IMG/VR virus record: IMGVR_UViG_3300043438_001363
Span: 1 to 24,450 of that record
Origin: a virus
Length of the DNA: 24,450 bases
Reading direction: 5' to 3' (one strand)
In this document: positions 17,228-24,450 of the stretch, piece by piece
Layout of the letters: each line of letters begins with the position of its first letter
Numbering within the stretch: the stretch's first letter is position 1
Program-made: the position numbers and the translations under genes
Notes under the pieces: generated by a model
Seen by the model: only the letters and a program-made list of their open reading frames with translations
Database searches by the model: none
What the model was told of the DNA's origin: nothing

Positions 17228-17260
17228 TATAGTTCGTTATCTCTATTGGAGGAAATGCCT

Positions 17261-17824
17261 ATGGAGAATATAAAACAAAAACTTAGCGATGTTTTACATC
17301 ACTATGTTGCAATAGCAGTAGCTGTACTGTTTTTATTTACTGGTCAACCAGAAATAATTCAATCAGCATCTGCACTGGTTGTAAAACCAGAAGTAAAAAC
17401 CGAAGCACAACTTAACAAGGAAAAGCTGGAGCAATTCAGCAATACTGTGTGGAAACCATCAGAGTCTTTAACAGACAAAGAATTGGTTGAACTTCTCAAG
17501 GCTGTAGGCTTTGAGGGTAGCGCCCTTAAAATGGCGTGGGCTGTAGCTAAAAAGGAGTCTAATGGACGCCCAATGGCTTATAACGGCAACAGGAAAACTG
17601 GAGACAGTTCCTATGGAATTTTTCAGATCAACATGTTGGGAAACCTAGGTGATGATCGTAAAGAAAAATTCAAACTGGATAGTAACTACTCGTTATTCGA
17701 TCCAGCAATCAACGCAGAGATAACGTATTATATGACCAATGGCGGTCAAGATTGGTCGTCATGGAAAGGTTTAACTCCTCGAACAAAAGAGTGGTTAGAC
17801 AAGTTTCCATCTAAAAAAGAGTAA
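17261..17824 (+). CDS. Secreted lytic transglycosylase/lysozyme-like protein
   Basis: 187 residues. I choose ATG 17261 because GGAGGA lies seven bases upstream, whereas earlier in-frame TTG and ATG codons overlap that site. Residues ~14-38 (HYVAIAVAVLFLFTGQPEIIQSASA) form an N-terminal hydrophobic signal or anchor. A lysozyme-fold core follows: 'MAWAVAKKESNGRP', whose Glu is the likely catalytic acid, then 'SSYGIFQINMLGN', the G-(I/L)-FQIN signature of the goose-lysozyme/transglycosylase superfamily. The C-terminal 'DPAINAEITYYMTNGGQDWSSW' matches the usual closing helices. It would cut peptidoglycan outside the membrane, either as an endolysin exported by the host Sec system or in virion release. 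It leads a plus-strand operon of small genes. Confidence 0.85.
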   Translation: MENIKQKLSDVLHHYVAIAVAVLFLFTGQPEIIQSASALVVKPEVKTEAQLNKEKLEQFSNTVWKPSESLTDKELVELLKAVGFEGSALKMAWAVAKKESNGRPMAYNGNRKTGDSSYGIFQINMLGNLGDDRKEKFKLDSNYSLFDPAINAEITYYMTNGGQDWSSWKGLTPRTKEWLDKFPSKKE

Positions 17825-17848
17825 GGGGTTAATATTAAGATACAAGTA

Positions 17849-18046
17849 GTGTCTAAGTATTTAGCTCTGTCAAGGGAAGGCCTTGTGTCAGAGATGGTTT
17901 GTCCATTAGACCAAGGTCTTCTCTTTTCTAATCAAGACGAAAAAGAAAAAATATTTGTATACTGTATTTCTTGCCAATATAAAAATTATATTGGAAGTGC
18001 TGTTTATTCAAAAATGCTGGAGAGTGTAAGTAATGCCGCTAAATAA
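17849..18046 (+). CDS. Small zinc-ribbon-like hypothetical protein
   Basis: 65 residues from GTG 17849. Upstream in-frame options are ATA and ATT codons close behind AAGGGG at 17824-17829, so the true start may be an ATT near 17834. The protein has 'MVCPLDQGLLF' and then 'VYCISCQYKNYIG', giving C-x20-C-x2-C, a small zinc-ribbon-like pattern seen in short phage proteins. It follows the lysozyme by a few bases and overlaps the next gene by 14 bases. Function is unknown. Confidence 0.75.
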   Translation: MSKYLALSREGLVSEMVCPLDQGLLFSNQDEKEKIFVYCISCQYKNYIGSAVYSKMLESVSNAAK

Positions 18047-18236
18047 CGAATTTGATGAGGCTTTAAGAGCTAAGGTAGCAAGGAATATACCATGTATGCA
18101 TATGCCTGGTTTGCTTCTTGCAGAAAAAGCACTTATTGTAGTTAAAGAATATGCTGAAGAAGCTAAATCTAGAGGCTTAACAACTATAGATGAATTGCTT
18201 GAAGATATGAAAGTAAAAGATGGAAAATCCGAGTAA
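18033..18236 (+). CDS. Small helical hypothetical protein
   Basis: 67 residues starting ATGCCGCTAAAT, with GGAGAG eight bases upstream inside the end of the previous gene. The product is mostly helical and charged (ALRAKVARN, LLLAEKALIVVKEYAEEAKS, DELLEDMKVKDGK), with no membrane segment and no recognised motif. It overlaps its neighbours by 14 and 17 bases, so the set is probably translated as one coupled unit. Confidence 0.75.
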   Translation: MPLNNEFDEALRAKVARNIPCMHMPGLLLAEKALIVVKEYAEEAKSRGLTTIDELLEDMKVKDGKSE

Positions 18237-18423
18237 TAATTTAGAAGACAATCTCCCTATGGTTAACTACATAATGCTCCATAGGATATATGATGTATTA
18301 TGCCTAATAGCTAAATTAAATGGGGGTAGTAATGAGATTGAAAAAATGGTAAAATATCATGAAGATGGATTTTTGCTGGGACCTTCCCCAGCATTTAGAG
18401 CGGAAGATGAAAAGAATGAATAA
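18220..18423 (+). CDS. Small hypothetical protein
   Basis: 67 residues; ATG at 18220, with a later in-frame ATG at 18259 (MVNYIMLHRIYDVL) as an alternative. The central part is a hydrophobic helix, 'MLHRIYDVLCLIAKLNG'. The C-terminus is acidic. The purine-rich GAAAGTAAAAG upstream is a weak ribosome-binding site, consistent with coupling to the previous gene. No family recognised. Confidence 0.7.
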   Translation: MENPSNNLEDNLPMVNYIMLHRIYDVLCLIAKLNGGSNEIEKMVKYHEDGFLLGPSPAFRAEDEKNE

Positions 18424-18613
18424 GGATAAAGAATCAGTAGTAGAGCTTATGGTTGCAGTATATGAGACTATAAATACAAAAATGGCTTTGATGTCTGGAA
18501 TGACTGAAGAAGAAGTAGAATCAAAAACAAATGAAGCACGTCCAGCTATGGTTTATTTTATGTCTGAAATATACAATAAGCTTGATGAAAATGATATACT
18601 AGCTCAGCAATAA
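18416..18613 (+). CDS. Small acidic helical hypothetical protein
   Basis: I place the start at ATG 18416 (MNKDKESVVELMV), which overlaps the previous stop by eight bases. Earlier in-frame ATGs at 18359, 18365 and 18407 would bury the gene in its neighbour and add residues of unlikely composition. The 65-residue product is helical and Met/Glu-rich (YETINTKMALMSGMTEEEVESK, YFMSEIYNKLDEND), with no recognised domain. Confidence 0.7.
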   Translation: MNKDKESVVELMVAVYETINTKMALMSGMTEEEVESKTNEARPAMVYFMSEIYNKLDENDILAQQ

Positions 18614-18876: not shown

Positions 18877-19473
18877 TTAAATTTTTTTGTGAACAAACAT
18901 TGACGCTATGACTCTATCTCCATTATAAAATCTATTTACTGCATGGGAGTATTCTTTTGTGCCAGGGTGACAAATTAGAGTTCCAGATTTTGGCTTTACA
19001 GATATGCCTTTATTAACATAAACAATTTCACCGTCATCAAAATCATCATTAATAAATATAACTAAACCTTTTGATACAAAAGACTTTCTTTCATTTAAAT
19101 CTTTTTCAGATAGATCGTATGAAACGTCATCTGCATGCGGTGGCATTATATATTCCGAGTTTAAAAACTCTATAGGAGTGTCTTTTGATAAAAAATCAAT
19201 ATTTCTATATTTAATTAATGAGATAAAGTCTGTATATGGACGTACTAACCATTCGGTTGAGTTATTAAAAATATCCTCTAATTTAGATAAATAAAAATTC
19301 CAAGTTTCAACTAAACTTTTTTCTGTTAAAATTAAAGATGTGTGAGCTAAATGTCCATAATCTTCAATGTAAGAATTAGACTTTATAGATTTTTGAATTT
19401 TGGCAATATCTTCTTTAGATATAAAATCTTCTATATAAAATATGTTTTCATCTAAGTATACTTTATCCATCAT
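18877..19473 (-). CDS. 2OG-Fe(II) oxygenase superfamily protein A
   Basis: 198 residues. It starts at ATGATG, overlapping the stop of the upstream oxygenase (ATGA). The iron-binding triad is visible: H-x-D in 'YIMPPHADDVSYD' (~113-115) and the distal His in 'GTKEYSHAVNRF' (~177). The following 'GDRVIASMFV' supplies the Arg that binds 2-oxoglutarate. Between them is the typical 'LVIFINDDFDDGEIVYVNKG' core strand set. The fold is the prolyl-hydroxylase-like double-stranded beta-helix. Substrates of phage members are unknown; hydroxylation of a protein, a nucleobase or a sugar is possible. It is second in a two-gene leftward operon. Confidence 0.88.
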   Translation of the reverse strand: MMDKVYLDENIFYIEDFISKEDIAKIQKSIKSNSYIEDYGHLAHTSLILTEKSLVETWNFYLSKLEDIFNNSTEWLVRPYTDFISLIKYRNIDFLSKDTPIEFLNSEYIMPPHADDVSYDLSEKDLNERKSFVSKGLVIFINDDFDDGEIVYVNKGISVKPKSGTLICHPGTKEYSHAVNRFYNGDRVIASMFVHKKI

Positions 19474-20222
19474 TCACCAAATATCCGTTTTTTATTTCTT
19501 TCTACTGTTTCTAAGTTATAAAAATCATTAGTTATGTCTTCTGGTAATTTAACATCTTTGAATCCCCAAGGTACAAACCCTTGTGATGGACCCATTCTCC
19601 AAAAATGTGGGGTTATGTACTTAAAACCTATATTAGGAACAGCTTCATGTTCATTATCTAGATCCGAAGATTTAAACATGATGATGCTTCCAGATTCTGG
19701 TTTTATTTGTAAATTATAGTTTGGAAAATATAAATATCCATCAGAATAATCATCATTGTAATATATGACAAAGGAGTGCTCTAGGTCATCATAGGGGCAG
19801 TCTGTGTGCAGTCCTCTAGATTGCATAGAGTTGTATTTACCAATAACATACCCAGGCGATGGGATTCTAGGATTCAAGGTAGTGTCTATCCCTAAATAAT
19901 TTGCATACTTATCTGAGCAATCTATAACAGCTTTATTAATAGATTCAAATACCCAATGACTTTCAGTATCTTTTTTATGTGGGTCAAACCAGTTTGGGTC
20001 ATATATACATTTAGCTAACCCAAAGTCTTCTGGAGTAATTCCTAATTCTTCCCAATCTTTTTTTTGCTCTAATGAAAACGCATATTTATTTCCCCATGGT
20101 AGCCAATCGGTAATAATATCATTTGACGTAGATTCTATATACTTTAGAATTTCTTTAGAATTAGGTATTGCATTTTTAAAATAAAAAATTTTATCGTTGT
20201 ATATTTCAACTTCTATAGACAT
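19470..20222 (-). CDS. 2OG-Fe(II) oxygenase superfamily protein B
   Basis: 250 residues with AAGGAG seven bases upstream of ATG. The H-x-D pair is in 'GLHTDCPYDD', the distal His in 'NEHEAVPNIG', and the core strand is 'SFVIYYNDDYSDGYLYFPNY' with 'KPESGSIIMFKS'. Where most members have an R that binds 2OG, this one reads 'GFKYITPHFWRMG', so the ligand may be the Lys or the later Arg. It is coupled to oxygenase A by a four-base overlap. The substrate is unknown. Confidence 0.85.
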   Translation of the reverse strand: MSIEVEIYNDKIFYFKNAIPNSKEILKYIESTSNDIITDWLPWGNKYAFSLEQKKDWEELGITPEDFGLAKCIYDPNWFDPHKKDTESHWVFESINKAVIDCSDKYANYLGIDTTLNPRIPSPGYVIGKYNSMQSRGLHTDCPYDDLEHSFVIYYNDDYSDGYLYFPNYNLQIKPESGSIIMFKSSDLDNEHEAVPNIGFKYITPHFWRMGPSQGFVPWGFKDVKLPEDITNDFYNLETVERNKKRIFGE

Positions 20223-20853: not shown

Positions 20854-21582
20854 TTATTTTTTTTCCGAATGTTCAAATGGCAAAGTGTAGAAATTCTTTG
20901 GCAAATCATTTTCGCCATATTCTCCAGTTATAGCACTAGACATTTTAATTGCATTAATACCCTCATATAGCTGGTCATTTTCTCTTAATGCTTGCGCTTC
21001 TGGAAGTGAAGCAAATCCAGCTACAATATATCTAACCCTATCACCTTTTACTTCTTCTGTATAGTGTGCATATTTTTCAAATCCAGGATGTAGCAGCAAA
21101 TCTCCCTTTTCAGGTTTATACATAAACTTAACATTTGGATAGGATATTTCACCACCGTCAAAATTGCTTAGATAGTGTGTTACACCAAATACGCATTTAT
21201 TATCCATACCTAGTGATTCCGACAAATTATCAGCATGTAAGAACATAGACTGCCCCTTGGTCATTCTATGAACAGAGTTCATGCTTTCGACCCAAAGCTC
21301 CTGTCTAAAGAGCTCCTGTAGCCTTATACGCATATGTTTTAGCTCTTCATCAAGTTCTGGATCTTCTATAAAAAAGAACTTGCCATGCCACCATTCTCTT
21401 TTATTTCTGTCCCACCAGATATCTTCTCCAAATGATTCTACATGGCTTACTAGTTTGTCGCAAAGATCATCTGATAGCCAGTTTTTTAATACAACTATGT
21501 TATCTTCAATTAGAACCGCATTAGGTTCTTTTTCTAGAATTTGATCAATCTGATTTTTAACTATAGATGCATATGGTTCCAT
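20854..21582 (-). CDS. 2OG-Fe(II) oxygenase superfamily protein C (leaderless start)
   Basis: 242 residues from ATG 21582 (MEPYASIVKNQ). A longer frame begins at 21603, but a -10 box (TATAAT) sits inside it and its predicted transcription start falls exactly on the A of ATG 21582. The shorter, leaderless form is therefore favoured. Catalytic residues: H-x-D in 'SMFLHADNLSES', distal His in 'FEKYAHYTEEVKG', and Arg in 'GDRVRYIVAGFA'. 'THYLSNFDGGEISYPNVKFM' and 'KPEKGDLLLHPG' form the beta core. This is the prolyl-hydroxylase-like group. A C-terminal extension of ~50 residues (ALRENDQLYEGINAIKM...) goes beyond the core. The substrate is unknown. Confidence 0.88.
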   Translation of the reverse strand: MEPYASIVKNQIDQILEKEPNAVLIEDNIVVLKNWLSDDLCDKLVSHVESFGEDIWWDRNKREWWHGKFFFIEDPELDEELKHMRIRLQELFRQELWVESMNSVHRMTKGQSMFLHADNLSESLGMDNKCVFGVTHYLSNFDGGEISYPNVKFMYKPEKGDLLLHPGFEKYAHYTEEVKGDRVRYIVAGFASLPEAQALRENDQLYEGINAIKMSSAITGEYGENDLPKNFYTLPFEHSEKK

Positions 21583-21588
21583 GCTCTT

Positions 21589-21616
21589 ATTATACACCGC
21601 CATATATTCTAGTCAA
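21589..21616 (-). promoter_or_regulatory. Sigma70-like promoter giving a leaderless mRNA
   Basis: On the minus strand TTGACT (21616-21611), a 16-base spacer, then a perfect TATAAT (21594-21589). Seven bases further is the A of ATG 21582. Leaderless transcripts are common in actinobacteria. Confidence 0.65.
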
Positions 21617-21722
21617 CTGCTTTTTCAGATTTAAGAAAATGTTAATATATTTTTTACATGTATGATACACGATTTGGGCAAAACGGACATTTCGGATAGT
21701 GCGCCCATAATGAATGGTCATT

Positions 21723-21738
21723 TGTGACCTATCTCACA
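21723..21738. promoter_or_regulatory. Crp/GlxR-like operator 1
   Basis: TGTGA-CCTATC-TCACA, a perfect match to the TGTGA-N6-TCACA palindrome bound by Crp/GlxR-family regulators. It lies about 83 bp upstream of the -10 box at 21814. Confidence 0.65.
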
Positions 21739-21747
21739 CGATTTTTT

Positions 21748-21763
21748 TGTGACTTACCTCACA
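21748..21763. promoter_or_regulatory. Crp/GlxR-like operator 2
   Basis: TGTGA-CTTACC-TCACA, centred exactly 25 bp from operator 1. Both lie between a distant inverted repeat, CGGACATT (21684-21691) and AATGTCCG (21763-21770), which could bracket a regulatory complex for the divergent genes. Confidence 0.65.
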
Positions 21764-21797
21764 ATGTCCGAATTGTACGCATTTATAAGTTGCAATT

Positions 21798-21819
21798 TGT
21801 CAGACCCCCATGTTATGCT
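21798..21819 (+). promoter_or_regulatory. PafBC/RecA-NDp-like early promoter 1
   Basis: TGTCAGAC, exactly eight bases, then TATGCT, matching TGTCR-x3-N8-TANNNT. It precedes the gene at 21861. The -35 region carries no TTGACA, as is usual for PafBC-type promoters. Confidence 0.65.
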
Positions 21820-21860
21820 TAAGGTATAAAGAAAAACAAATTAAAGAAAGGTGGTCTCAA

Positions 21861-22076
21861 ATGACTACACTAGATAAAAATACAATTAAACACTCTCGCT
21901 TTGGTCATCTTGACCTAGAGCAACGAATTCGCTTAGGTGCTGAAATGGTTGCCAATGGCGAACTAGTTTCCTTCCGTGGTGCTAGTGCCGAGACCTATAA
22001 CAAGGTCATGACTCTTGCTAATCGTATCAAGCAAGAGCGAGAGTTTCCTCAATGCCCTTGTGGAGAGTGTGACTAG
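21861..22076 (+). CDS. Early hypothetical protein
   Basis: 71 residues from ATG 21861, preceded by AAAGGTGG. A longer frame from 21810 would place the promoter-proximal leader inside the protein and is unlikely. The product is helical and charged (HLDLEQRIRLGAEMVANGEL, SAETYNKVMTLANRIKQERE) and ends in PQCPCGECD, a C-x-C-x2-C group. The leader and first codons (MTTL) match those of the gene at 23139. No known domain. It is the first of the rightward early genes. Confidence 0.8.
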   Translation: MTTLDKNTIKHSRFGHLDLEQRIRLGAEMVANGELVSFRGASAETYNKVMTLANRIKQEREFPQCPCGECD

Positions 22077-22111
22077 TATCACACCGACACGATAGGCTAA
22101 CCTCCCCAATT

Positions 22112-22133
22112 TGTCAGACCCCCATGCTACACT
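22112..22133 (+). promoter_or_regulatory. PafBC/RecA-NDp-like early promoter 2
   Basis: TGTCAGAC, eight bases, TACACT; nearly identical in sequence to promoter 1 through the spacer (CCCCATG). It drives the operon from 22166 to 22923. Confidence 0.65.
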
Positions 22134-22165
22134 TACAACATAACAACAACGAAAGGTCAGAATAA

Positions 22166-22279
22166 ATGACACTAGATGAATACAAGCAAATGGTAGAGGC
22201 TCAACGCCTTGCCTCCCTAGCAATCGCCCTAGAGGCACTAACTAAGTCTAAGGCTATCTCAGAGGAGATGAATAAATAA
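22166..22279 (+). CDS. 37-residue early peptide
   Basis: ATG at 22166 is preceded by CGAAAGG, the ribosome-binding element shared by the early operons. The product is helical (EYKQMVEAQRLASLAIALEA, then LTKSKAISEEMNK). The stop overlaps the next ATG as TAATG. Too short to assign. Confidence 0.7.
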   Translation: MTLDEYKQMVEAQRLASLAIALEALTKSKAISEEMNK

Positions 22280-22461
22280 TGTCATACGCATACTCATACG
22301 AAACTAACAGCGTGTCTAAGTGGGACACTATCCAATCAGATGTCGCAGACGCATACGCATACCTTGATGAGGTAGATGAGGAACAACCTCCACTAGATGA
22401 ATTTGATGACTCAGATGATGAGGCACTAGCAAAACTATACGAACTAACATGGGAGAACTAA
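22279..22461 (+). CDS. Acidic early protein
   Basis: 60 residues, extremely acidic (long runs of D and E, for example DEVDEEQPPLDEFDDSDDEA), with Tyr-rich N-terminus MSYAYSYETNS. Such proteins can act as DNA mimics or anti-repressors, but there is no direct evidence here. It is coupled to neighbours by TAATG at the start and followed by ATG two bases after its stop. Confidence 0.75.
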   Translation: MSYAYSYETNSVSKWDTIQSDVADAYAYLDEVDEEQPPLDEFDDSDDEALAKLYELTWEN

Positions 22462-22463
22462 TA

Positions 22464-22631
22464 ATGACTATCACTTACTCAATTTGGCAAGGCTCTAAAC
22501 TAATCTCTATTGACAATGTCGCAACAGATGTAAAAGCAATCGACAATCTAATAAATGCGCTTAATGATAGCGAACTAGGCAAGGGTAAAAAGTTTACCGC
22601 TAATGTAATGGACATAAAGGTGACCGCATAA
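22464..22631 (+). CDS. Small early hypothetical protein
   Basis: 55 residues from ATG 22464, with GGGAGA about seven bases upstream. The earlier in-frame ATG at 22449 lies inside the previous gene and has no ribosome-binding site. The start MTITYSIWQGSKLISIDNVA resembles a beta-rich domain. Its stop overlaps the next ATG. Function unknown. Confidence 0.75.
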   Translation: MTITYSIWQGSKLISIDNVATDVKAIDNLINALNDSELGKGKKFTANVMDIKVTA

Positions 22632-22801
22632 TGAAAGAATGTAAAGTAATTAACTGCAACAATACCGATTTAGTTTATAGCGGAATAGATGCCATGCTAT
22701 TAGGCGGTATCATTACCGAAACCTATTGCTACTCATGCGCTAATGCGTATAATCAAATAGATAGCGCTATGCAATCACTAAGAGATAAGGTTAATGCGTA
22801 A
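22631..22801 (+). CDS. Small early zinc-finger-like protein
   Basis: 56 residues beginning MKECKVINCNNTDLVYSG. C4 and C9 in the first strand and C-x2-C (CYSCANAY) later form a possible four-cysteine zinc site. The start overlaps the previous stop and the stop overlaps the next start. No named family recognised. Confidence 0.72.
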   Translation: MKECKVINCNNTDLVYSGIDAMLLGGIITETYCYSCANAYNQIDSAMQSLRDKVNA

Positions 22802-22923
22802 TGAATAGACTACTTACTACACTAGTGCAGTTATCCCTTGCCCTCCCCGCCCTATACATGGCGAGGATCGTGTGGCATGACTTTAAAGCAGAGATGAGAG
22901 AGATGTGGCAAGAGTCACACTAG
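22801..22923 (+). CDS. 40-residue early membrane-type peptide
   Basis: ATG overlaps the previous stop (TAATG). The product has a hydrophobic stretch LLTTLVQLSLALPALYMARIV followed by a charged tail (WHDFKAEMREMWQESH), so it may be a single-span inner-membrane peptide with a cytoplasmic tail. It ends the operon. Function unknown. Confidence 0.65.
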   Translation: MNRLLTTLVQLSLALPALYMARIVWHDFKAEMREMWQESH

Positions 22924-22959
22924 CCTAACGGCGTGTCGGCTTGACAATGTCGAGCTGGC

Positions 22960-22974
22960 CCGCAATCTTGCGGG
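22960..22974. terminator. GC-rich hairpin in regulatory cassette 1
   Basis: CCCGCA pairs with TGCGGG around a four-base ATCT loop, directly before the DnaA box. The second cassette keeps a CCCGC/GCGGG stem with a different loop, so the structure is conserved while the loop changes. It may terminate the upstream operon, though no T-run follows. Confidence 0.5.
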
Positions 22975-22976
22975 AG

Positions 22977-22985
22977 TTATCCACA
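22977..22985 (+). promoter_or_regulatory. DnaA box (TTATCCACA), cassette 1
   Basis: A perfect consensus DnaA box. A one-mismatch box in opposite orientation (TTTTCCACA on the minus strand) lies at 23000-23008. Confidence 0.65.
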
Positions 22986-23020
22986 GGGTTACGGGCATCT
23001 GTGGAAAACCCCAGAATTTT

Positions 23021-23036
23021 TGTGATATTTATCACA
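23021..23036. promoter_or_regulatory. Crp/GlxR-like operator 3
   Basis: TGTGA-TATTTA-TCACA, a perfect palindromic match, centred ~73 bp upstream of the -10 at 23102. Operator 4 has practically the same spacing to its own promoter. Confidence 0.7.
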
Positions 23037-23085
23037 TAGGCTGAGCGTCTCACATCTTGGAATTACTGGCTAGTAAGTAGAGAAA

Positions 23086-23107
23086 TGTCAGACCCCCATG
23101 CTACAAT
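23086..23107 (+). promoter_or_regulatory. PafBC/RecA-NDp-like early promoter 3
   Basis: TGTCAGAC, eight bases, TACAAT. It precedes the gene at 23139 and is preceded by the conserved GAATTACTGGCTAGTAA element of the cassette. Confidence 0.65.
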
Positions 23108-23138
23108 TCCACTATAACGAAAAAGAAAGGTGGTCAAA

Positions 23139-23312
23139 ATGACTACACTAACAAATACACATACACATACTCCACACATGGAGTCCATTTCTAATGTCGG
23201 AGATTTCCAATACACATTTTGCGAAACTTGCGAAATGAACATAGATAGATTTTACATCTATGATGACTATGACCGCTTACCATTTTGGACAGATTGGAGT
23301 TTAACTAAATGA
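23139..23312 (+). CDS. Early Cys-containing hypothetical protein
   Basis: 57 residues from ATG 23139 with AAAGGTGG upstream; a GTG at 23130 is less likely because it overlaps the ribosome-binding site. The N-terminus (MTTLTNTHTHTPHMES) matches the MTTL of the gene at 21861. A C-x2-C pair (FCETCEMN) and several aromatics follow (FYIYDDYDRLPFWTDW). Function unknown. It overlaps the next gene as ATGA. Confidence 0.75.
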   Translation: MTTLTNTHTHTPHMESISNVGDFQYTFCETCEMNIDRFYIYDDYDRLPFWTDWSLTK

Positions 23313-23470
23313 AAAGTAATTTTGAGGTAACGCAAGAAATAACCGACCTTGCTAAAAAACACTATGGCGAAATGGATTTAGCCTTTAAGTGGGGTTGTGC
23401 TCAAGCACTTCTTTCTACTAAACAATTAGAGATTATTCTAGGAATACTAAAAGATAAGGAAAACGCATAA
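23309..23470 (+). CDS. Small early hypothetical protein
   Basis: 53 residues: MKSNFEVTQEITDLAKKHYG..., a helical protein with 'FKWGCAQALLSTKQLEIILG' in the middle. The start overlaps the previous stop and the stop overlaps the next ATG (TAATG). No family recognised. Confidence 0.72.
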   Translation: MKSNFEVTQEITDLAKKHYGEMDLAFKWGCAQALLSTKQLEIILGILKDKENA

Positions 23471-23685
23471 TGCTAGATTTCGAAATTACTTTTGCGATTA
23501 AACAATTATTTGATGAAATGCTTGATGATTGTTATCCCGTCTATGAAATGGGTAACGCTGTTTTTTATCCCTCCCAAATTCTAAAAGATTGTGACCCGAT
23601 TGCTTACAATGAGGCACTTTTAGATTTTCAAGATAATTACATGAAAGATAACGCAGACGATTTAGAAAGGTTGATGAGCGAATGA
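23470..23685 (+). CDS. Acidic early hypothetical protein
   Basis: 71 residues, acidic and aromatic (LFDEMLDDCYPVYEMGNAVF, LLDFQDNYMKDNADDLERLM). No motif recognised. Overlaps at both ends show it is one member of a coupled operon. Confidence 0.75.
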   Translation: MLDFEITFAIKQLFDEMLDDCYPVYEMGNAVFYPSQILKDCDPIAYNEALLDFQDNYMKDNADDLERLMSE

Positions 23686-23780
23686 CAGATTTTTTTGGAT
23701 TTGAAAAATCAATTCAAATTGATCATTTAACAGATGAGCAAATCTTAAAGCTTGAAGAAATTTTTAAAGATTTCGAATAA
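23682..23780 (+). CDS. 32-residue early peptide
   Basis: ATG at 23682 overlaps the previous stop (ATGA). The product MTDFFGFEKSIQIDHLTDEQ, then ILKLEEIFKDFE, is an amphipathic acidic helix. It ends directly before regulatory cassette 2. Confidence 0.6.
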   Translation: MTDFFGFEKSIQIDHLTDEQILKLEEIFKDFE

Positions 23781-23831
23781 GTAACGGCGTGTCGACTTGA
23801 CAAAAGTTGATGCGCCCGCAAAAGAGCGGGG

Positions 23832-23861
23832 TTATCCACAGGGTTACGGGGGTTATCCACA
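23832..23861 (+). promoter_or_regulatory. Tandem DnaA boxes, cassette 2
   Basis: Perfect TTATCCACA at 23832-23840 and again at 23853-23861, same orientation, 21 bp apart (two helical turns). The second lies inside a GGGGGTT...AACCCCC hairpin (23848-23867). Candidate DnaA-binding control site or part of a replication origin. Confidence 0.65.
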
Positions 23862-23894
23862 ACCCCCTGGAATTTTCCGACACGCCCGAGATTT

Positions 23895-23910
23895 TGTGAT
23901 TTTTATCACA
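23895..23910. promoter_or_regulatory. Crp/GlxR-like operator 4
   Basis: TGTGA-TTTTTA-TCACA, perfect palindrome, centred ~72 bp upstream of the -10 at 23975. Confidence 0.7.
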
Positions 23911-23958
23911 CGGCTTGAGCGTCTCATTATTTGGAATTACTGGCTAGTAATTAGAAAA

Positions 23959-23980
23959 TGTCAGTGCCATAGGCTATAAT
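23959..23980 (+). promoter_or_regulatory. PafBC/RecA-NDp-like early promoter 4
   Basis: TGTCAGTG, eight bases, TATAAT: an exact match to the mycobacterial consensus TGTCRGTG-N8-TANNNT. It precedes the gene at 24013. Confidence 0.72.
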
Positions 23981-24012
23981 TGCTACTATCAACAAACGAA
24001 AGGCGGACTCAA

Positions 24013-24225
24013 ATGTCAGCAAATGTCTATACAATCGAAAGCCTACTTGTAGGAAAAACCTATCACTCAAAATCATTAAAGGGTGAAATCATCTCAGCGG
24101 AAAAAGATAATTCCGTATGGTATGCGGATTGCGAAACTTATAAGGTTCAGGTTAGACCTCATTACTCAGCACCGCTAAATTTAAAAGATACTTATCGCTA
24201 TTTAGCCGTAAAAACTTCCGATTAA
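24013..24225 (+). CDS. Small early hypothetical protein
   Basis: 70 residues from ATG 24013, preceded by AAAGGCGG. A longer frame from 23980 would start at the promoter and is unlikely. The product is beta-rich (VYTIESLLVGKTYHSKSLKG, EIISAEKDNSVWYADCETYK) with no recognised domain. It is the only gene of its transcript before the next promoter. Confidence 0.75.
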   Translation: MSANVYTIESLLVGKTYHSKSLKGEIISAEKDNSVWYADCETYKVQVRPHYSAPLNLKDTYRYLAVKTSD

Positions 24226-24296
24226 ATAAAATCGAAACAGGGGCAGTTTAGAGGGAGTCCTCGCCCAATGTCGTAAGTAAGAACCCTCACAAAATT

Positions 24297-24318
24297 TGTC
24301 AGTGCTAACTGATACAAT
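24297..24318 (+). promoter_or_regulatory. PafBC/RecA-NDp-like early promoter 5
   Basis: TGTCAGTG, eight bases, TACAAT: exact match to the consensus. An imperfect GGGC...GCCC hairpin with inner GAGG/CCTC lies upstream (~24241-24266), possibly terminating the previous gene. ACGAAAGG follows as the ribosome-binding site. Confidence 0.72.
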
Positions 24319-24346
24319 AACTAAATAAACAAACGAAAGGAAAACT

Positions 24347-24450
24347 ATGTTAAACATAATCGACAAAACCGATTTCTATGAAATCGCAGACGAGCAACAT
24401 TTTTGTTGTGATGAAAGTCAATTTAAGTATTACTGTATCGAACACCTAGA
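24347..24450 (+). CDS. Partial early hypothetical protein
   Basis: ATG at 24347, preceded by CGAAAGG, opens a frame that runs off the window after 34 codons (MLNIIDKTDFYEIADEQHF, then CCDESQFKYYCIEHL). Cys- and acid-rich, unrecognised. It is the first gene of the transcript from promoter 5. Confidence 0.75.
   Translation, partial: MLNIIDKTDFYEIADEQHFCCDESQFKYYCIEHL

Follow-up and report, generated by a model that had tools for sequence, protein, structure and literature searches.

Putative promoters of an uncultured actinophage pair a PafBC-type core with a helically phased CRP/GlxR-type palindrome

The virus record IMGVR_UViG_3300043438_001363 of IMG/VR comprises 24,450 bases in full with a guanine-cytosine (GC) content of 38%, and the contig is a fragment; this whole stretch is called the window here. 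Its rightward promoters probably have two host inputs and would be read by host CRP together with host PafBC, the DNA-damage activator of the host. Judging from sequence comparisons, the better supported half of the promoter is the helically phased CRP/GlxR site, for which the case is strong. Dependence on PafBC is likely, and the two host sensors may jointly control infection. A preliminary description of the window had interpreted five motif copies as PafBC-dependent damage switches. Its PafBC reading is plausible and now appears better supported, but as a damage switch it was incomplete: the CRP-type palindromes had been overlooked, and with them the reading shifts to a two-input promoter.

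The promoters (P1 to P5) consist of the following elements. The gap is the distance from palindrome to core, and palindrome centres were computed from a start assumed 7 nucleotides after the -10 element.

21723 to 21738, no strand: CRP/GlxR-type palindrome TGTGACCTATCTCACA, P1 distal site, gap 59, centre at about -95.5
21748 to 21763, no strand: CRP/GlxR-type palindrome TGTGACTTACCTCACA, P1 proximal site, gap 34, centre at about -70.5
21798 to 21819, plus strand: P1 core, TGTCAG (the -26 element), N7, TG of an extended -10, N, TATGCT
22068 to 22083, no strand: CRP/GlxR-type palindrome TGTGACTAGTATCACA, P2, gap 28, centre at about -64.5
22112 to 22133, plus strand: P2 core TGTCAGACCCCCATGCTACACT, match to the core pattern
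23021 to 23036, no strand: CRP/GlxR-type palindrome TGTGATATTTATCACA, P3, gap 49, centre at about -85.5
23041 to 23076, plus strand: P3 spacer element of the gap-48/49 class (CTGAGCGTCTCA ... ATTACTGGCTAGTAA), common to relatives
23086 to 23107, plus strand: P3 core TGTCAGACCCCCATGCTACAAT, match to the core pattern
23895 to 23910, no strand: CRP/GlxR-type palindrome TGTGATTTTTATCACA, P4, gap 48, centre at about -84.5
23959 to 23980, plus strand: P4 core TGTCAGTGCCATAGGCTATAAT, exact TGTCRGTG-N8-TANNNT
24297 to 24318, plus strand: P5 core TGTCAGTGCTAACTGATACAAT, exact consensus, without an upstream CRP palindrome

The five-motif observation is confirmed and is not due to chance. The motifs lie where they had been reported, at 21798, 22112 and 23086 (TGTCAGAC) and at 23959 and 24297 (TGTCAGTG), each followed by eight bases and TANNNT. 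Over the whole window TGTCAG-N10-TANNNT is far above the shuffled expectation, with 6 matches against 0.30, and none of 100 shuffles reached 6. All six are directed rightward and fall inside the last 2.7 kb, where a Markov model of 21604-24450 predicts 0.009. The sixth match (24014) overlaps the start codon of an open reading frame (ORF) and is probably a coding coincidence. TGTCRGTG is the consensus of PafBC-dependent (RecA-NDp) promoters; TGTCRGTG-N8-TANNNT occurs exactly at the last two sites, as had been described (P4 and P5; 0.03 expected), and its spacing, equivalent to TGTCRG-N10-TANNNT, is kept at all five. In all five promoters the -10 element is followed after 29-42 bases by an ATG preceded by GAAAGG.

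The earlier argument that conserved spacing in five copies speaks against chance holds as far as chance is concerned, but the spacing is partly a product of duplication. Three of the five copies have TGTCAGACCCCCATG in common and are identical to each other at 18-21 of 22 positions, and a 77-nucleotide repeat (81% identical) lies upstream of P3 and P4. Because the cores are near-identical and P3 and P4 share this repeat, the five promoters are not independent, and independent evidence therefore has to come from relatives. The statement that all rightward transcripts carry the motif is true of the right end only, since a second rightward ORF group at 17246-18613 lacks an exact core; "transcript" and "early" are themselves presumptive labels for these genes.

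Perfect copies of TGTGA-N6-TCACA, the GlxR consensus according to the available part of PMC7999487, occur five times in the whole window, all in the promoter region, against 0.05 expected. Two lie at P1 and one each at P2, P3 and P4, so that four of the five promoters are covered. The double sites at P1 are 25 bp apart, and double sites with gaps of 34 and 59 recur in relatives.

The scan of relatives proposed in the preliminary description was run on viral contigs. The combination of a palindrome, 28-58 bases and a core (set A) is present in at least 120 stretches, the richest of those listed containing 7 matches; its mirror image, used as a control, was found in 7 stretches, once in each. 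A core-only scan (TGTCAGNCCCCCATGNTANNNT) also returned at least 120 stretches. Removal of the 20 already found in the palindrome-core scan left 100 loci (L127-L226; set B), and since the dropped ones had the palindrome, the CRP share in set B can only be lowered. Even so, the 130 bp upstream contain a perfect palindrome for 67 of the 116 unique set-B cores and one with at most one mismatch for 83, the reversed control giving none. Counted from the palindromes, 208 of the 251 in set B have a core on a single side when 80 bp are searched each way, and no palindrome has cores on both sides; in set A, which was selected for the pair, the figure is 311 of 390.

The constancy of TGTCAG among the collected promoters is circular as an argument, being a condition of the search patterns; only the phasing and the coupling of unselected palindromes escape this objection. 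Because collected promoters contain TGTCRG by construction, the fairest test of coupling is given by the set-B palindromes unattached to the selecting core, 128 of 177 of which have TGTCRG-N10-TANNNT within 80 bp (de-duplication differed slightly from that in the 208 of 251 count). TGTCRG is thus a regular partner of the palindrome and not a by-product of the search. Four long relatives together contain 64 cores, compared with 6 for the mirrored control. On these sequence comparisons the palindrome-core pair is a widespread putative promoter type in large actinophages.

The distance between palindrome and core is discrete: 28, 38 and 48/49 are the main peaks, 18 and 59 are lesser ones, and the proximal P1 site falls in a small class at 33/34 that is out of phase. 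For the analysis of phasing, set B was thinned so that no two promoters had more than a quarter of their 6-mers in common, leaving 75 representatives; 8 with gaps above 75 were excluded. In the remaining 67 dissimilar promoters the best of nine tested periods was 10.2 bp (R 0.755, nR2 38), with 10 and 10.5 nearly as good, and 58 of the 67 gaps are within 1 bp of 18, 28, 38, 48 or 58, with a caveat that these bins were chosen post hoc. Sets A and B combined (n=177) gave R=0.783 at 10.2 bp, the gaps of set A being restricted by the search pattern. Duplication inside the window as a chance source of this regularity is ruled out by the 75 mutually dissimilar promoters, which come from other contigs.

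The spacers are unlike between the classes: gaps of 34/59 go with AATGTCCG, 48/49 with TGAGCGTCTCA and ATTACT-N4-AGTAA, and 38 with CGACACGCCCGA. A quantised gap combined with unlike spacers argues strongly for a CRP-type dimer working together with polymerase at the core. In the gap-48/49 class, TGAGCGTCTCA ... ATTACT-N4-AGTAA is conserved between palindrome and core (23041-23076 in the window, and in relatives with this gap); perhaps a third regulator uses it as an operator. In the same spacer a covarying dyad YTACT-N4-AGTAR was also considered, and with arm counts of 91/22/21/13 covariation is not clearly supported.

The core itself resembles a promoter that does without a -35 box. Among 490 unique phage cores preceded by a palindrome, the positions left free by the search pattern have G two bases before TANNNT in 84% and T ahead of that G in 70%, which corresponds to an extended -10, and the logo of these cores has no TTGACA-like consensus at the place expected for a -35. 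A classical sigma-70 -35 was also sought with a generic promoter scan, which was uninformative. The phage layout fits published PafBC promoters, in which, according to the available part of PMC11804915, the helix-turn-helix (HTH) of PafB sits on the -26 motif and that of PafC on SigA domain 4.

Presumed hosts were represented by 30 genomes of 1.2-1.5 Mb chosen from 394 class-level genomes. Their size and the GC content of their loci (mostly 42-53%, a few 56-63%) suggest mostly freshwater Nanopelagicales, and the viruses probably have an actinobacterial, freshwater host, the host order being presumptive. One relative (L092) encodes a WhiB protein 50% identical to that of large Streptomyces phages (BillNye-type), and WhiB marks actinophages in the parts available of PMC10202952 and PMC6802176. 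Most of the 30 genomes possess both regulators: PafC was found in 27 and a CRP-type HTH in all 30. The order pafB-pafC-tatC was read by eye in two loci (L241 and L244), and an endonuclease III-like gene is, by eye, the neighbour of the CRP-type regulator in two loci, as it is in mycobacteria too.

The same core is found at host recA genes, with TGTCRG-N10-TANNNT at 17 of 28 recA loci, 15 times directly before the SOS box and twice after it. Examples are TTGTCAGTGGCGCCTGCTACCTT and TTGTCAGCCCCTCCTGCTACCTT, compared with TTGTCAGACCCCCATGCTACACT in phage. Six of these 17 cores have no TG after TGTCRG (three read TGTCAGCC), so in host genes as well the TG is variable. The strict pattern TGTCAG-N7-TGNTANNNT is matched 27 times across the 30 genomes, 18 of which contain it, against 5 in the control. 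By downstream ORF, 12 of the matches belong to recA and 4 to carD (one carD-type sequence was checked with Pfam); the strict core is therefore located mainly at DNA-damage-type genes in these bacteria. In four small-genome actinobacteria (L282, L286, L292, L301) carD is preceded by the PafBC-type core TGTCAG-N7-TGGTAGAAT, which suggests that carD is part of the PafBC regulon there.

That the pair is an ordinary host promoter type was rejected, as it was found in only 1 of the 394 genomes, the seed. A stricter scan of genome contigs gave six stretches. Two precede thyA (by eye), two come from a single phage-like contig, and the others are L227 and L229. In the first two, both actinobacterial (L230 1127-1214 and L232 2623-2718), the palindrome and TGTCGG-N7-TGNTANNNT stand directly before a thyA-like gene, and it is possible that this is a host gene with the same two-input promoter. 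With two actinobacterial thyA genes carrying the pair, a host chromosome can hold it. The phage-like contig (L228/L231, CAINGU010000031.1) is 110 kb long, has clustered cores, and was assigned to a cyanobacterial metagenome-assembled genome; it was probably misbinned.

Several observations weigh against a promoter read by host CRP and PafBC. P1-P3 do not fit the exact TGTCRGTG consensus, to which only P4 and P5 conform, and are called PafBC-like here and not members because they miss it. The proposed PafBC-type identity gains from the same core at recA of small-genome actinobacteria and loses from three of five sites. P5 has no palindrome. In set B, 49 of 116 cores lack a perfect palindrome (33 even with one mismatch allowed) and 43 of 251 palindromes lack a core; several of the 18 core-less palindromes inspected precede, by eye, ordinary TTGAC-type promoters. 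Eight cultured actinophages that were scanned gave no enrichment (7 matches, 9 in the control). On the host side, 11 of 28 recA loci have no exact core, 11 of the 27 strict matches lie at places other than recA and carD, and host chromosomes almost never contain the pair. A search for perfect copies of TGTGA-N6-TCACA, degenerate sites being outside its scope, found them in 3 of the 30 presumed-host genomes (3 sites versus 7 in the mirrored control), so the host's own use of the palindrome is unsupported; the fetched recA loci contain no perfect copy. The available part of PMC9380542 states that the mycobacterial PafBC motif is not conserved in Streptomyces venezuelae, and the motif accordingly cannot be assumed for every actinobacterium. 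Finally, PafBC acts only with single-stranded DNA (ssDNA) bound, according to the part of PMC11804915 available, and this need sits awkwardly with an immediate-early promoter.

In the mechanism proposed here, the promoters would serve a large tailed actinophage, rightward and probably early. TGTCAG would lie at about -28 to -23; in most cases the -10 is extended (TGN-TANNNT), and a -35 box is missing. The HTH of PafB would contact TGTCAG, with PafC docked on sigma-A domain 4 in substitution for the -35 contact. Upstream, a CRP/GlxR dimer would bind TGTGA-N6-TCACA with its centre about 64, 75, 85 or 95 bp before the presumed start. These sites would share one helix face, the simplest contact being the C-terminal domain of the RNA polymerase alpha subunit (class I). 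One input would report the host energy state (cyclic AMP, cAMP, through CRP) and the other ssDNA (PafBC), tying phage expression to host physiology and to ssDNA from infection or damage.

Extended -10 promoters can function without a -35, which favours a simpler arrangement. CRP would then be the sole activator, and host sigma-A would read TGTCAG and the extended -10 unaided once CRP has recruited polymerase. This is unlikely, even though CRP phasing is the strongest signal, some relatives' palindromes precede, by eye, promoters without TGTCAG, and PafBC requires ssDNA to act (PMC11804915, in its available part). CRP acting alone is at odds with the 128 of 177 unattached palindromes that have TGTCRG-N10-TANNNT, and with the 16 of 27 strict matches in the presumed hosts that are recA or carD, because of which the TGTCAG core does not resemble a general core element.

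The other class of explanation moves the reader from the host to the phage. TGTCAG is only 10 bp from the -10 element, too near for a -35 contacted by sigma region 4, which speaks against a phage sigma factor. In 30 long relatives (phage contigs of 77-117 kb, not necessarily complete) no WYL domain (0 of 30) and no cyclic-nucleotide (cNMP)-binding domain (0 of 30) was found, and when ORFs from the host loci of PafC and CRP were compared by blastp with 8339 phage ORFs, none matched at 1e-3. A phage-encoded activator was rejected on these results, and with neither domain in the 30 relatives the PafBC and CRP of the host are the simplest and likely readers; an HTH protein of another kind is a possible one. 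Among the Pfam families listed for 55 of the 98 ORFs of one relative (G457), 25 of 34 families in all, there is no sigma factor; no systematic search for sigma factors across the relatives was made. It is accordingly quite improbable that the phage supplies its own activator or sigma factor for TGTCAG or the palindrome and that the likeness to host promoters is convergence or mimicry, despite the WhiB protein of L092 and the sigma-70 factor and WhiB which cultured Nanopelagicales phages encode (PMC10202952, as far as available).

The common gaps place the palindromes about 55-96 bp upstream of the assumed start, which is usual for class I activation and not for the blocking of polymerase. That the palindrome instead works as an operator, be it for repression or to bind a second regulator, with the phasing produced by looping or co-binding and not by class I activation, is very improbable, though the 25-bp spacing of the P1 double sites, the extra conserved elements TGAGCGTCTCA and ATTACT-N4-AGTAA in gap-48/49 spacers, and the repression of coliphage T1 promoters by cAMP-CRP (PMC6737242, available part) would suit it.

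The reading as a promoter with host CRP and PafBC inputs also has a genomic setting. In each of two long relatives the elements are concentrated in a single rightward segment: in G453, 17.1-28.5 kb holds 17 of 23 cores and 8 of 8 perfect palindromes, and in G457, 80.7-92.5 kb holds 14 of 16 cores and 6 of 6 palindromes. Taken together, the two segments account for all 14 palindromes and for 31 of 39 cores. Most of the 108 ORFs of G453 and the 98 of G457 are leftward; among rightward ORFs of at least 90 amino acids, 10 of 16 in G453 are at 20.4-29.9 kb and 11 of 15 in G457 at 79.1-93.1 kb. Because of this layout the segment is presumed to be expressed early. Ten proteins from these segments were scanned, and two GP88-family and two DUF932 proteins were found. 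G457 further encodes RecA/UvsX, SSB, ThyX and Hsp20, as well as a protein with a partial match to a Proteasome subunit (L376:3-539; PF00227, E 1.1e-8, 41 residues).

The leftward genes of the window include tail-fibre proteins and a ribonucleotide reductase with 61% identity to that of large Streptomyces phages of the StarPlatinum/Karimac type (Stanwilliamsviridae). From about 21.8 kb to the contig end the genes are directed rightward and the ORFs are small:

21861 to 22076, plus strand: small ORF after P1, ATG at 21861 after AAAGAAAGGTGG (the ORF list starts at 21810), no Pfam match
22166 to 22923, plus strand: small ORFs after P2, starts at 22166, 22279, 22449, 22631 and 22801
23139 to 23780, plus strand: small ORFs after P3, starts at 23139, 23309, 23470 and 23682
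24013 to 24225, plus strand: ORF after P4, no Pfam match
24347 to 24450, plus strand: ORF after P5, runs off the contig end

None of seven small rightward ORFs from the right end reached the cut-off in a Pfam scan, and no DNA relatives of the rightward region were found among cultured phages. Three leftward ORFs (20854-21603, 19470-20222 and 18877-19473, minus strand) match PHROG 2297, which is named DNA endonuclease. One of them has an additional weak match to 2-oxoglutarate (2OG)-Fe(II) oxygenases, and because of this the PHROG name may be wrong.

Two short words recur between the operons. GGCGTGTCG occurs at 22930 (plus), 23786 (plus) and 23886 (minus), two of the copies following operon ends. 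It is strongly over-represented in 920 kb of set-B phage loci (249 occurrences versus 0 for the mirrored word) and is found 13 times versus 0 in 139 kb of presumed-host recA/paf loci; it is absent from G457. The DnaA-box-like TTATCCACA is located at 22977, 23832 and 23853, in the intergenic regions before P3 and P4, and occurs 266 times in set B against 11 for its mirrored word.

Compared with the RecA-NDp/PafBC promoters of mycobacteria and other actinobacteria, the phage promoters are alike in TGTCRG at -26, a fixed distance to TANNNT and the lack of a -35, and the presumed hosts have the same core beside the recA SOS box and before carD. They differ in that phage copies often read TGTCAG[AT]CCCC and not TGTCRGTG, usually have the TG of an extended -10, and mostly add a phased upstream CRP palindrome. 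With class I CRP/GlxR promoters they share TGTGA-N6-TCACA (PMC7999487, available part), located upstream on one helical face in steps of about 10 bp. Here the site is paired with a PafBC-type core instead of a -35/-10 promoter, and the pair forms arrays in phages while being almost absent from 394 host-class genomes. The pir gene of coliphage T1 is likewise a phage gene sensing host cAMP-CRP; going by the available part of PMC6737242, CRP represses in T1, whereas the position of the site suggests activation here, and in the present case the site is repeated before many operons of one region. Unlike the window's group, the four large Streptomyces phages scanned (StarPlatinum, SparkleGoddess, WhereRU and Bmoc) show no enrichment of the core; the large Streptomyces phages of the Stanwilliamsviridae are genomic relatives by the ribonucleotide reductase of the window and the WhiB of L092. 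No phage promoters built on PafBC, or joining PafBC and CRP inputs, were found in the available parts of the open-licence literature, and a search on actinophage early promoters and CRP returned nothing relevant among the matches listed.

A more far-reaching version is possible and is offered tentatively. In it, an AND gate of cAMP-CRP (energy status) and ssDNA-activated PafBC would run most of the rightward early region in widespread large, probably freshwater, actinophages. It would be active exclusively in cells in a suitable metabolic state, after phage- or damage-generated ssDNA has appeared, and the RecA-independent damage response would become a positive feedback for the phage. If the two-input promoter is real, many uncultured actinophages would tie their early program to the sensing of host cAMP and ssDNA, which would provide a testable physiological trigger for infection. 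The motif would also help to find actinophages that have no whiB or CRISPR matches, and the collection would be a natural promoter set with which to study the joint action of CRP and sigma adaptation on a single polymerase.

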